Positions 11,268-16,571 of a stretch of 64,000 bases of DNA are shown here, one piece after another. The stretch is taken from contig NZ_CP075523.1 in the NCBI RefSeq assembly GCF_018502385.1, positions 124,001 through 188,000 of the forward strand, read 5' to 3'. The first letter of the stretch is position 1, and each line of letters opens with the position of its first letter. This DNA is from Synechococcus sp. LA31. Its GTDB lineage: Bacteria > Cyanobacteriota > Cyanobacteriia > PCC-6307 > Cyanobiaceae. A model generated the notes under the pieces. The model did not search any database. It had not been told where the DNA came from and saw only the letters and a program-made list of their open reading frames with translations. Position numbers and translations under genes: made by a program.

Positions 11268-13085
11268 GTGCTGCATCACCGGCTCTTCACGGTCTGCGCA
11301 GCAGCTCTGCTGGCCTCTCCTGCCCACGCCAATTTGCTTCAGGAGCGCTCCCAGCGCTTCCACCCGATCGAATCGGGCGGCGGCATGGTGGCGGCGCAAG
11401 AAGCCCAGGCCGCCGCCGTGGGTGCGGCGATCCTTAAGCGGGGCGGCAATGCCGTGGATGCTGCGGTGGCTACCTCGTTTGCCTTGGCGGTCACCTTGCC
11501 CCAGGCCGGCAACCTTGGCGGTGGTGGCTTTCTGGTGCTGTGGCTTCCGCGCACAGGCCCGATCAGCACGTGTCCGGCCGTGGCACGCTCCACCCCCTTG
11601 CCGGAAACGATCGCGCTCGGCCGCGGCGAGGCAGTGGCGCTCAACTTCCGCGAAACGGCGCCCCAGGCGGCCCGTGAGGATCTCTTCCTCAATCCCGATG
11701 GCAGCGTGAACCGCCAGCGTGCGCTGCGCAGCCTGCTGAGCACAGGCGTGCCGGGAACGGTGGCCGGTCTGACCCAGGTGCAAGCGCGCTATGGCTGTTT
11801 GCCGCTGCAGGTGGTGATGCAGCCTGCGGTCGACCTGGCCGAGCGCGGCTTTCCGGTGGGAGCTGAGCTCAGCGCCTCACTCCAGGCGGCTGCTCCTCTG
11901 CTCAAGGCTGATCCCGCCAGTGCTCGTCAATTTTTCAAGGCCGATGGGGAGGCCTACCAGCCGGGCGACATCCTGCGGCAACCGCAACTCGCAGCCAGTC
12001 TTCGCTGCATCGCCCAAGACGGAGCGTCCTGTTTCTATGCCGGCAAGCTGGCTGGTCAGCTTGCCTCGCTGATGCAGGGGGGTGGCGGATTGATCACGGC
12101 GGCCGACTTGGCGGCCTACCGAGCTCCCTGGGCTACACCTCTGCAGGGTCAGTTTCATGGCCACCGGGTGCTCACCATGCCGCCGCCAAGCGGCGGCGGC
12201 GCCACGTTGCTTCAGCTGCTCAAGGTGTTGGAGCCCCTGGATCTGGCCACCAGCGGAATAAACAGTGCTGCCACGATTCACCTGATGGCGGAGGCGATGA
12301 ACCTCGCCTATCGCGATCGCAATGTTCTGCTGGGCGATCCCGACCAGGTGGTGATGCCACTCAACCGGCTCCTCAGCGATCGCTATGCCACGGAGCAACG
12401 CCGACGCATTCGCCTTGATCGCCACCGCCCTGCGGCGGAGCTCGAGGCTGAGCCGAGGCCGTCTGGTGAAGGAACCAACACCACCCATCTTTCGGTGGTG
12501 GACCGTGATGGCGGACTGGTGGCCACCACCACCACACTCAACACCGCCTATGGCAACGGCATCACGGTGCCTGGGGCGGGCTTCCTGCTCAACAACGAGA
12601 TGGATGACTTCACAGCCAAGCCGGGTGTGCCGAATGCCTATGGCCTGCGCCAGGGGCGTCAGAACGCCATTGCCCCTGGTCGACGGCCTCTCAGTTCGAT
12701 GACCCCCACCCTGGTGTTCCGCCCGGATGGCGCACCCCTACTGGCCACGGGCAGCCCTGGCGGCAGCCGCATCATCACCACGGTGTTGCAGGTGTTGCTG
12801 AACCGCCTGATCCATCGTCTCAACCTGGCCTCAGCGGTGGCGATGCCTCGGATCCACAGCCAGCTCTGGCCGGATCAGATCAGCATCGAGCAGGGCATCA
12901 GCCCGGACACGCTGAGGTTGCTCTTGCAGAAGGGACATGCCGTCAAGCTGGTGCCAGCGATGGGTTCTGCTAATTCCGTCGAAGTGCGCTACGGGGTTGA
13001 ATCTCCTGTTGCGCTCCCGATGGGCAGCTACGGAGTAGCGGATCCGCGTCGCCTGGATGCGGCAGCGGTGCGCGAGCGGCCGTAG
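11268..13085 (+). CDS. ggt: Gamma-glutamyltransferase
   Basis: Hydrolyses or transfers the gamma-glutamyl group of glutathione and related peptides, normally in the periplasm. A signal peptide is visible (HHRLFTVCAAALLASPAHA, residues about 3-21). The precursor is autocleaved before the catalytic threonine: T405 in the N-TTH-LSVVD motif fits. Downstream are NTAYGNGITVPGAGFLLNNEMDDF and the RPLSSMTPT substrate loop, with TGSPGGSRI forming the glycine loop. It has 605 aa, normal for the family. The start is a GTG at 11268, since the frame offers no nearer ATG before the signal sequence. Its last 58 bases overlap the convergent P-type ATPase-like gene. Confidence 0.95.
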   Translation: MLHHRLFTVCAAALLASPAHANLLQERSQRFHPIESGGGMVAAQEAQAAAVGAAILKRGGNAVDAAVATSFALAVTLPQAGNLGGGGFLVLWLPRTGPISTCPAVARSTPLPETIALGRGEAVALNFRETAPQAAREDLFLNPDGSVNRQRALRSLLSTGVPGTVAGLTQVQARYGCLPLQVVMQPAVDLAERGFPVGAELSASLQAAAPLLKADPASARQFFKADGEAYQPGDILRQPQLAASLRCIAQDGASCFYAGKLAGQLASLMQGGGGLITAADLAAYRAPWATPLQGQFHGHRVLTMPPPSGGGATLLQLLKVLEPLDLATSGINSAATIHLMAEAMNLAYRDRNVLLGDPDQVVMPLNRLLSDRYATEQRRRIRLDRHRPAAELEAEPRPSGEGTNTTHLSVVDRDGGLVATTTTLNTAYGNGITVPGAGFLLNNEMDDFTAKPGVPNAYGLRQGRQNAIAPGRRPLSSMTPTLVFRPDGAPLLATGSPGGSRIITTVLQVLLNRLIHRLNLASAVAMPRIHSQLWPDQISIEQGISPDTLRLLLQKGHAVKLVPAMGSANSVEVRYGVESPVALPMGSYGVADPRRLDAAAVRERP

Positions 13086-15418
13086 GTCTTTGTGTTTGGC
13101 TTCGTCTTTCCGGCAAGTGCGCCCTTTGGCTGTTTGCTGGGTGGGGGTGGCTGCCTTTGTGGCAACCGGCAGGCCAACGGGCGGTCGGGATAGGAGATAT
13201 CGGTTTTGTGATTGTGTTCGGAGGTTTCGAACATGCTGTGTGTGTTCATCGCCGTGATGTTGCGCACGCCGGCGAGAACAACCGGCACGTTTGAGAACAC
13301 AACAGTGGCCAGCGGGTTGAACCAGTTCACAGCTGAGCCAATGGCTGTCACCAGGGAGGAACCCACGAGGAGGCCGAAATTGCTGTTGGTAACGCGCTGG
13401 AGCCGCCGGCTCAGACTGATCATCCGCGGTAGCCAGTGCACATCTGGCCCGATCACGACATCGCAGATGCAGGAGGAGAAGATGCTGTCGGCGTCAACCT
13501 CGATGCCGATGGAGACATCAGCCTGCGAAAGGGCGGGCATGTCGCTGAGAACATACCCCACATAGGCCACCCCCTCGTTTTTTTTCTGCAGTTCACGAAC
13601 AAGATTCATGCGTTCTTCGGCATGAAAGTTGCCATGTAGGTGGCTTTCGTGTTTGATACCTAGTGGTTTGATGAGCTCCATCATTTTTGCGTTGTTATCA
13701 ACGCCCACCACATGAACTTCCAGGCCCAGTTCCTCCAGCGTTTCGCAGACGCCGCTCCAGCCAGGGCCAGGTTCCGTGATCAGATCGGCGTAGCCGAGGA
13801 AGGTTTCACCTTCCCAGATCTGGAGGGGATTGAGATGTCGCTGATGAATGTCTGACCCAGCCTGCCGCAGTTCGCTCATGATCAGCACGCGTCCGTCAGC
13901 AAGCGTGATGCGCCAGCCTTCGGTGAGCAGGTCGTTGATTTCCACATCAACAACCTCCGTGGGCGCATTCACTTTGTGAAGCTGGTCTGACCAGATGGGA
14001 ACATCATCGTTTTCCAGTAGGAAATTCTGAATGCCCGCCAGGATTTTCAGGATGTCACCCTTCTTTGCGCCGCTGCTGAGGTTGATGTGTTCATGGGTTT
14101 TGATGCCGCCCATGCGATCCAGGCAGCTTCGGCTGATCACGATGTGCTTCACCTTTCCCAGTGCGATGAGAGCCTCCGGGTCGTTCAGGTGAATGCCATG
14201 TAGATGCAGTGTTGCCATGGCGGTGAGCCTGGCGGAAATGCTGCTGGTTTCCCAAGAGTAAACCGGTGTGAACTGCAGAAAACCAAGGGCGCGTTCGGTT
14301 GCGCCCAAGACTGCTGATGCGCCGCCCGCGGTAAGGAGGACCGGCGTCATCCAGTTGTAGTAAGTTTCGATGGATTTTTCGGCTTGTACCTCATCCAGAG
14401 AAGAGCGCTCGTGGCGGTGAGGGATGTGATAAGTGGAGCATTCTTTGAGTGATTTGACGACCTCCAAAAGGCCATGGCCTTTGACGACGAAACCACCAGC
14501 GTGAACCACGTCGCCTGTCTTGAGGTGCAATGGTTTCCAGTCACCATCGTAAAGCCTGTTAATCACAATGAAGTCGCCTTCAATGACCCGGCTTAATAGG
14601 AAGATGTGTGATTGCAGTGCTATGTGATAGCGGTCGCCTTTCTTGGCTTCTGATAGTTTGCAGGTGCTGCGACTGCTATTGATTAGATCAAGCTTGATGT
14701 GTTCCCCGAGGCGATCGATTAGCTCGTGGGATTCGGCGTGAAATTCTTCCTCTCCAGACACCACGCCTTTGATGGTTTGCGTTGCATCGCCGAACAGTTG
14801 ATCCAGTAGGGCTTCGCCGGGGAGCCCTTGGCTGATCAGAAGACCAGAAAAGGCCAGTTCGAGAATGCTGTGATTCGATGATTCCTTGTGTTGTAGGCGG
14901 TGTTTGATCTCTTTGAGCAGTGGAATCAGGCTCAGGATTGCCCCGGCCGTCATCACGGCTAGAGGCATCGGGAGCAGGATTTCGGCGATCAGTAATGCAC
15001 CGATGGCTGCGCCATGCCGGGCCGCAAGCCTGCCAGCTTCATTGGCTTGCCAGCGTGCTGCCCTGAGCTCGCCCAAGGGAGAGACCAGCTCGTTATCAAT
15101 GGTGGGCAGTTGAAGGGCCAGCGTTAGTAGGGCCTTAACGTCGCGCTGGCGGTGCCGGGGGAAGCGGAGAATGATGCTGCCAGTGAGGCCGTTGATCCTG
15201 AAGCCCTGCAGCCAGTGGCAGCACGTGAGGGTGACGTTGCAGTGGTGGCGCAGAACCGGGGAGTTGACCAGCTCAGCGCTGTTGACACGGAGCCGCTGCG
15301 GCAAGCTGCTCTGCATCACCCACAACGTTTCCCGCGTTCCGGCCTGCGTCGTGCCCTGAGCCGAGCCGGGATTCACGGCAGTTGTCATGGCCCGCGTGAT
15401 TCCCGAACGGTCGCTCAC
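13028..15418 (-). CDS. Degenerate P-type ATPase-like protein with N-terminal HMA-like domain
   Basis: A 796-residue protein laid out like a P1B-type metal ATPase but with eroded catalytic motifs. Residues about 30-100 resemble an HMA_2/CoBaHMA-like domain (VMQSSLPQRLRVNS...FRINGLTGSIILRF), without the CxxC metal site. Hydrophobic helices follow at about 135-165. The A domain ends in GDVVHAGGFVVKG. The phosphorylation loop DKTGTLT is LDRMGGIKT, which keeps Asp434 but loses the K, both T's and the L. The P-domain hinge GDGxND is GYVLSD (621-626), and the HP and CPC motifs are absent. The C-terminus is a basic, Pro/Gln-rich tail. Active transport is unlikely. It starts (GTG) one base after the exchanger stop codon, so the two are an operon. 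Its third codon positions are more AT-rich than those of its neighbours. Confidence 0.8.
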   Translation of the reverse strand: MSDRSGITRAMTTAVNPGSAQGTTQAGTRETLWVMQSSLPQRLRVNSAELVNSPVLRHHCNVTLTCCHWLQGFRINGLTGSIILRFPRHRQRDVKALLTLALQLPTIDNELVSPLGELRAARWQANEAGRLAARHGAAIGALLIAEILLPMPLAVMTAGAILSLIPLLKEIKHRLQHKESSNHSILELAFSGLLISQGLPGEALLDQLFGDATQTIKGVVSGEEEFHAESHELIDRLGEHIKLDLINSSRSTCKLSEAKKGDRYHIALQSHIFLLSRVIEGDFIVINRLYDGDWKPLHLKTGDVVHAGGFVVKGHGLLEVVKSLKECSTYHIPHRHERSSLDEVQAEKSIETYYNWMTPVLLTAGGASAVLGATERALGFLQFTPVYSWETSSISARLTAMATLHLHGIHLNDPEALIALGKVKHIVISRSCLDRMGGIKTHEHINLSSGAKKGDILKILAGIQNFLLENDDVPIWSDQLHKVNAPTEVVDVEINDLLTEGWRITLADGRVLIMSELRQAGSDIHQRHLNPLQIWEGETFLGYADLITEPGPGWSGVCETLEELGLEVHVVGVDNNAKMMELIKPLGIKHESHLHGNFHAEERMNLVRELQKKNEGVAYVGYVLSDMPALSQADVSIGIEVDADSIFSSCICDVVIGPDVHWLPRMISLSRRLQRVTNSNFGLLVGSSLVTAIGSAVNWFNPLATVVFSNVPVVLAGVRNITAMNTHSMFETSEHNHKTDISYPDRPLACRLPQRQPPPPSKQPKGALAGKTKPNTKTYGRSRTAAASRRRGSATP

Positions 15419-15419
15419 G

Positions 15420-16571
15420 TTAACCGCCCAGGAACAAGGTGCCAGCGCCGATCACCGCATACAGGGTGAGGAGAAGACTTCCCTCGTACCAGCTCAACTT
15501 GCGGTTTTCCGTGATCCAGTGCACGGCCAGCACGGTGGCTCCCAGGCAAAACAGCGATGTGGCTGGAACGGCGAGATGCAGATAGCGGCCCATCGGCACG
15601 CCACAGATCACCAGGAGGGGGAGCACGAACAGCAGGAGCTGCACACTCGACTCGACCGTGCTGGCCATTGCCAGATCCATGCGGTTGGTGGCGGCCGCTT
15701 TCACGGCAATCAAGGCCTCAGAGAAGCATCCGAAGAGAGGGAGTAAAAACAGGCCAACAAACAGAGGATTGAGATGGGCTCCATCCACCATCAGCTGAAG
15801 CGATTCCACCAGGTTCTCCGACACCCCCACCAGCACGATGCTCACCAAGAGAAGCATGCCCAGGATGACGCTGAGGGGTTTGTTCTCGCCCTCTGGAGGT
15901 AGCACGCGCTCTTCTTCTTGTCGCAGGTAGAGGCTCCTGCCTGTTCCCATCTGATAGACGAAAGACAAGAGGTAGAAGGCTAGAACCAGAATGGAGACGA
16001 TCAGCGAATAAGAGGCAAAAGAGTCAAAGATATTGCTTCCATCGCTGAGAGCGGCTGCTTTTTCGCCGAGGTTAAAATTGTTGGCTAGGTGAAAAATTGT
16101 AGGAACGGCAAGAAAAATGGTGCTGATCAGGAGTTGTTGGCTTTGCAGCCCAGTGCTGTAGGGGTGGATTTCGATGGTCGCTTTTTTGCGTGCGCCCACG
16201 CAGGTGCTGATGCCCAATACCAGCAGGCAGTTGGTGATCACGGCGCCAGCTACGGAGATCACCACCAGGTGATACAAACCACTCGCCAGTGCCGTGAACG
16301 ACACCACCAGTTCCACCAGGTTGCCCAAGGCCACGCTGATGAGGCCTCCGATGCGATCGCCGAGCTTGTCGGCGAGGGCCTCTACCATTTCTGCGATCAT
16401 TCGGGCCAGGGGCACCAAGCCAAGGCCGCAGATCACAAACCAGCCCGCCAGTTGGCTGATGGGTAAGCCTTCTTCAATATGTCCAAACAGCGCTGCGATC
16501 GTGAAGATCAGTAGGAGGCTCCAGCGGCTAGACAGCAGGTCGCGGCCGAGCCCTACCCATGCTCTGATCAT
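15420..16571 (-). CDS. CAX-type Ca2+(cation)/H+ antiporter
   Basis: Integral membrane exchanger of the CaCA superfamily, expelling Ca2+ or related divalent cations against protons. The 383-residue chain has about 11 hydrophobic segments and both alpha-repeat signatures. The first is GNLVELVVSFTAL at about residues 82-94, with the ion-binding Glu. The second is GCFSEALIAVKAA, followed by a helix containing STVESSVQLLLFVLP. An acidic loop (RQEEERVLPPEGENK) separates the halves. It is the first gene of a two-gene operon with the degenerate P-type ATPase-like protein. The pairing suggests a shared divalent cation, plausibly calcium, but the ion is not determined by sequence alone. Confidence 0.88.
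   Translation of the reverse strand: MIRAWVGLGRDLLSSRWSLLLIFTIAALFGHIEEGLPISQLAGWFVICGLGLVPLARMIAEMVEALADKLGDRIGGLISVALGNLVELVVSFTALASGLYHLVVISVAGAVITNCLLVLGISTCVGARKKATIEIHPYSTGLQSQQLLISTIFLAVPTIFHLANNFNLGEKAAALSDGSNIFDSFASYSLIVSILVLAFYLLSFVYQMGTGRSLYLRQEEERVLPPEGENKPLSVILGMLLLVSIVLVGVSENLVESLQLMVDGAHLNPLFVGLFLLPLFGCFSEALIAVKAAATNRMDLAMASTVESSVQLLLFVLPLLVICGVPMGRYLHLAVPATSLFCLGATVLAVHWITENRKLSWYEGSLLLTLYAVIGAGTLFLGG

Follow-up and report, generated by a model that had tools for sequence, protein, structure and literature searches.

The window, that is, the whole 64,000-nt stretch of DNA analyzed here (G000:C1:124001–188000 of a 2.75-Mb genome), encodes a protein that is well supported as a conserved, selected, and catalytically dead P-type ATPase. 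The gene for this pseudo-ATPase (positions 13028–15418, minus strand; 796 amino acids as called) has an open frame. Directly upstream and in the same orientation lies a gene for a homolog of CAX-type Ca2+/H+ exchangers (15420–16571, minus strand; 383 amino acids), also with an open frame. As the first-pass annotation of this DNA had observed, a single base separates the CAX stop codon from the GTG start of the pseudo-ATPase when this start is taken as called. The start codon is uncertain because residues 1–32 show no conservation; homologs start near residues 20–33, and the true start may lie up to ~30 codons downstream of the called GTG. At the other end, the last 58 bp of the gene (13028–13085) overlap the 3' end of a convergent gamma-glutamyltransferase-like gene (11268–13085, plus strand), and this overlap encodes the very end of the disordered tail of the pseudo-ATPase. 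A PADLOC search gave no match, and a scan for promoters and terminators did not rise above chance and was uninformative.

Fold and Catalytic Motifs

The window protein matches the Pfam model E1-E2_ATPase with an E-value of 4.3e-6, just under the cut-off, and matches the NCBIfam models of heavy-metal P-type ATPases far under their cut-offs. In its AlphaFold2 model (mean pLDDT 76.5, pTM 0.75), the fold is complete and the A, P, N, and M domains follow the P-type order. The best sequence and structure matches are P1B ATPases (ZntA, CopA, and ATP7B), which have the same overall fold and domain order. The best Foldseek match is ZntA (E 7.5e-26) and the best VIA match is LpCopA (4bbj; Z 25.6, 571 residues), with about 13–16% identity to P1B ATPases in structural alignment. 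The phospho-aspartate is a defining feature of P-type ATPases. P1B ATPases keep this residue (in DKTGT) as well as the TGE, TGD, HP, CPC, and GDGxND motifs, whereas the window protein lacks all of them. Because these defining catalytic features fail, the protein is not classified here as a P-type pump.

The first-pass annotation had described a 796-residue open frame with LDRMGGIKT as the phosphorylation loop, GYVLSD as the hinge, and neither CPC nor HP, all of which hold on the sequence. It had also considered Asp434 to be the kept catalytic residue, which is incorrect. In the MAFFT alignment with intact pumps (VVVFDKTGT vs. HIVISRSC), the catalytic aspartate corresponds to Ser429 (14132–14134, minus strand), and Asp434, five residues farther on, aligns with a leucine. 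The AlphaFold2 model agrees, since Ser429 ends the strand 423–429 at the site of the P-domain nucleophile and Asp434 lies in the helix 430–437. Asp434 as a retained phosphorylation site is thus ruled out. The position of Ser429 is occupied by a hydroxyl residue in all 35 relatives aligned (Ser in 30 and Thr in five), whereas position 434 is variable among them (D/E/L/N/Q/R/C/K/G).

The losses exceed those listed by the first-pass annotation, and also include TGE, TGD, the P-domain lysine, and both the proline and most of the hydrophobicity of M4. In the actuator domain, the loop DGDW (residues 291–294; 14537–14548, minus strand) aligns in place of TGES, so that TGE reads DGD in the window copy; position 293 is variable across the family. 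TGD is replaced by VGV, and the P-domain lysine by Arg603, which is also arginine in 33 of the 35 relatives. GYVLSD (residues 621–626; 13541–13558, minus strand) aligns with GDGxND, and of the two aspartates in that motif only the second is kept, as Asp626, which is invariant in 35/35 relatives. The HP nucleotide-binding motif is missing from clades A, B, and C of the family. In M4, the window copy has WETSSISARLTA at the position of CPC/SPC with no proline there, and the hydrophobicity is mostly gone (best 19-residue mean of 0.44, compared with 1.27 in an intact pump). That these motif losses are common to 35 relatives indicates more than chance. With the catalytic residues replaced and M4 changed, transport by the usual P-type cycle would be very unlikely for this protein.

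Departures from the canonical loop are rare among P-type ATPases. In a 2014 survey, DKTGT was found in 99.77% of these proteins, and only 22 of 9,634 had an altered form, all by single point mutations (PMC3896382). The variants in that survey differ from the present family, in which every catalytic motif is replaced. No P-type pseudo-ATPase family is described in the literature searched, which covers few subscription journals, and a prior description may exist.

The N-terminal part of the protein (residues 32–112; 15083–15325, minus strand) forms an HMA_2-like, ferredoxin-like domain that lacks CxxC, as indicated by HMM, model, and fold matches. The HMA_2 (PF19991) match of the window copy itself is below threshold (E 0.02 / 5e-4; 20.4 bits vs. 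the curated cut-off of 30), and E-values of 0.01 or lower were obtained for 18 of 21 relatives (best, 1.5e-7). The domain is modeled with a pLDDT of 90.5, has fold matches to HMA domains, and carries the invariant basic residues R42, R44, and R74. RNA polymerase L/K subunits also appear among its PDB matches, with Z-scores equal to those of HMA domains; this likeness reflects a common small alpha/beta arrangement and was rejected. Speculatively, a basic HMA-like domain without CxxC could mediate contact with the membrane or with a partner. Its HMA-like fold, conserved basic residues, and lack of CxxC presumably also place it near calcyanin and CoBaHMA proteins. At the opposite end, residues 727–796 (13031–13240, minus strand) form a disordered tail in the AlphaFold2 model, which in clade A, the subclade of the window copy, contains the motif (A/S)CRLP. 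This motif is recognizable in four of the five clade A copies (one reads SCRVL) and is absent from clade B, which makes it a candidate docking motif of the clade A tail.

The pseudo-ATPase gene is under purifying selection. For the closest pair of relatives from the lineage of the window copy, dN/dS is ~0.09; the values are 0.09–0.10 in the two close clade A pairs and 0.16–0.19 in clade B and C pairs, all of them rough since dS approaches saturation in several of these comparisons. In the two closest copies, the P-domain loop (residues 426–455; 14054–14143, minus strand) is the most conserved part of the protein, with a pN/pS of 0.07. Frameshift or pseudogene decay, which the first-pass annotation had envisaged alongside homologs with intact motifs, is contradicted by these ratios and by the open frames, and the 35 relatives share the losses.

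Distribution and Genomic Neighborhood

An HMM built from 11 members was searched against 400 Cyanobiaceae genomes from 59 genera. The AB-type pseudo-ATPase was found in 27 of these genomes, representing seven genera. A wider HMM (E 1e-30) detected no AB-type member among 388 genomes of the class outside Cyanobiaceae, and a short-pattern scan of named genomes returned one distant archaeal match only. A distant type C occurs in the window's genus, g57, and g67. The window's own genome has one such copy (L047:8321–10507, plus strand), which has a serine at the catalytic position and lies away from the pump cluster described below. In the phylogenetic tree, a branch with 100/100 support separates all pseudo members from 21 catalytic ATPases. 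A single origin of the pseudo-ATPases is likely from this topology; the long branches in the tree leave it short of proof. The tree disfavors, but does not reject, a scenario in which clade A arose when the clade B copy of the same genus was recently duplicated (AU p 0.084).

The usual gene order around AB-type members consists of an intact P-type ATPase, a small HMA-like protein, and the pseudo-ATPase. Companions in this cluster include genes for beta-carbonic anhydrase and DUF1345, as well as DUF5132-like, DUF454-like, and ArsA_HSP20-like genes. In the window's own genome, the row of intact ATPase, small HMA-like protein, and clade B pseudo-ATPase is found at L046:8033–13082 (minus strand), and this row is conserved in several genera. 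The intact ATPase of the cluster (L046:10608–13082) has the same layout as the pseudo-ATPase, including an HMA_2-like N-terminus, but keeps DKTGT, TGES, TGD, and GDGxND and is placed apart from the pseudo-ATPases by the tree. This pump is present in 30 of the 400 genomes, and all 27 genomes with an AB-type pseudo-ATPase are among them. Two of the remaining three (g67) have a C-type pseudo-ATPase directly behind the pump, and in the third, the small HMA-like gene is truncated by the end of the contig. Of the functional associations found for the family, co-occurrence with the intact pump is the strongest.

The clade B cluster of the window's own genome also contains a gene (L046:15440–16348, plus strand) for a 302-aa protein with an HMA-like N-terminus and glycine zippers. 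Such proteins occur in the main cluster of the window's genus and of g70, with weaker matches at the g67 pump locus, and HMM matches in other cyanobacterial families are proteins of roughly 320–380 aa. In G638 (L169), a homolog overlaps a CAX gene by 11 nt. Calcyanin is a protein tied to intracellular calcium carbonate. We take the glycine-zipper protein to be probably calcyanin-like, since its architecture and distribution fit those of calcyanin. Calcyanin is mentioned in PMC11773610.

Clade A has a different setting. It comprises five copies in four genomes of the window's genus, two of which form a tandem pair, and all four loci follow the same CAX gene, with a 1-nt overlap or gaps of 1–24 nt. 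The first-pass annotation had left open that the two genes might lack conserved linkage in other genomes; they are linked in all four clade A genomes, for all five copies. The pair is flanked by an ABC-transporter operon and the gamma-glutamyltransferase-like gene, and because these flanking genes are conserved as well, the linkage partly reflects common descent. The tandem copies (G015, L040:7631–12233, plus strand) are 44 and 70% identical to the window copy, and the first of them lacks the C-terminal tail. At the same locus, two further genomes (G007 and G021) encode an intact CAX and no pseudo-ATPase, which indicates that the CAX does not need the pseudo-ATPase. In G013, which has no clade A member, the syntenic CAX is split by a frameshift (L115:7772–8901, plus strand).

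Other cation exchangers occur near members of the family. In another genus (g70), three genomes have a CAX gene ~6.5 kb away from the main pseudo-ATPase locus, and a Na_H_Exchanger gene is also found beside the family. In g5, a GDT1 divalent-cation/proton antiporter gene is the convergent neighbor of the pseudo-ATPase (L122:11832–12434, minus strand), and in g67 a putative GDT1-like frame (L144:3411–4040, plus strand) is located a few kb from the pump locus. CAX and the pseudo-ATPase family occur together in 15 of the 400 genomes, an association that is confounded by kinship.

The exchanger in the window matches Na_Ca_ex at 6.8e-26 (91.5 bits vs. the cut-off of 24.9) and falls under the NCBIfam cax equivalog cut-off (TIGR00378; 179.2 vs. 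211.15 bits). Its PDB matches are VCX1 and YfkE, which belong to the same CAX family, and its orthologs are 79–88% identical. The first-pass annotation had called this exchanger intact. The open frame agrees with this, as does the acidic residue kept in both alpha repeats (GNLVEL and GCFSEA, as aligned with VCX1 and YfkE), but the second repeat is atypical, with GCFSEA and VESSVQ compared with GNAAEH and GSSLQ in VCX1. The atypical repeat is found in the cyanobacterial copies compared, both with and without a linked pseudo-ATPase.

Possible Roles of the Pseudo-ATPase

The reading that we lean toward, if only slightly, is that the pseudoenzyme is a non-pumping partner of cation transporters, which would ancestrally be the intact pump and here the CAX or the same Ca/Mn homeostasis. 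This reading rests on the loss of catalytic residues, the purifying selection, the predicted fold, the co-occurrence with the pump, and the fixed place behind the CAX. The P1B-like fold would be unable to form the usual phosphoenzyme and probably unable to bind ATP. It could then act as a membrane partner of a cation transporter, as either a regulatory or an assembly subunit, with both its A/P/N head and its basic HMA-like N-terminal domain as docking surfaces. Ancestrally, this transporter would be the intact pump from the conserved cluster. The window copy, presumably co-expressed with the CAX, would most likely modulate the exchanger or couple it to the same Ca/Mn homeostasis.

The first-pass annotation had favored a sensor, chaperone, or regulatory pseudo-ATPase for the exchanger in particular. 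A dead, selected, and CAX-linked protein fits this, but most family members sit behind an intact pump, and the kept "Asp434" on which the proposal partly rested is a misalignment. Regulation of the CAX by the window copy is judged as possible only, given that the CAX is not the usual partner of the family and that three related CAX loci have no pseudo-ATPase.

Alternatively, the clade A protein may still work with the intact pump of the distant cluster, like its paralog is presumed to do, and be placed behind the CAX only for co-expression under the same Ca or Mn conditions. This is a real but lesser possibility. All four clade A genomes encode the intact pump, which is the regular neighbor of the family. 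Three of them have a complete clade B pseudo-ATPase, and the fourth (G022) has a fragment of it where a contig ends. However, clade A proteins share a conserved C-terminal motif that clade B lacks, and their constant position directly behind the CAX is more than co-regulation needs.

A role as a membrane scaffold or lipid binder with no relation to any transporter, in which the HMA-like domain binds anionic lipids and the dead core serves only as an anchor, is improbable. Although the absence of the metal-binding CxxC, the invariant R42, R44, and R74, and the crowding of similar small HMA-like proteins in the main cluster would suit such a role, it does not account for why the A, P, and N head is conserved, Ser429 and Asp626 included, or why exchangers and pumps recur as neighbors. 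Residual transport, whether by an ATP-independent channel or carrier mechanism or through a phosphoserine/threonine intermediate at residue 429, is also quite improbable. The invariant hydroxyl residue at this position and the kept Asp626 are compatible with it, but HP is missing from the nucleotide site, replacements affect TGE, TGD, and the P-domain lysine, and M4 is without its proline and largely without its hydrophobicity. A decaying pseudogene, as the disappearance of most catalytic motifs and the freely varying C-terminal tail might suggest, is scarcely credible in view of the open frames in the window copy and the relatives used, a dN/dS of about 0.1, the altered loop being the most conserved segment, and the same replacements in relatives from eight genera.

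The non-pumping partner can also be extended to a broader model, which we regard as rather unlikely. Dead P-type ATPases may be exchangeable regulatory subunits of cation transporters (the intact pump, CAX, and perhaps GDT1), within a system that includes the calcyanin-like protein and carbonic anhydrase and governs the handling of calcium, and of carbonate, in picocyanobacteria. The role of the pseudo-ATPase is directly testable because there are two concrete candidate partners, namely the intact pump and the CAX. A selected family that always has Ser or Thr at the site of the phospho-aspartate would be a clear P-type pseudoenzyme lineage, and its link to CAX, GDT1, and a calcyanin-like gene touches on how cyanobacteria handle intracellular calcium.
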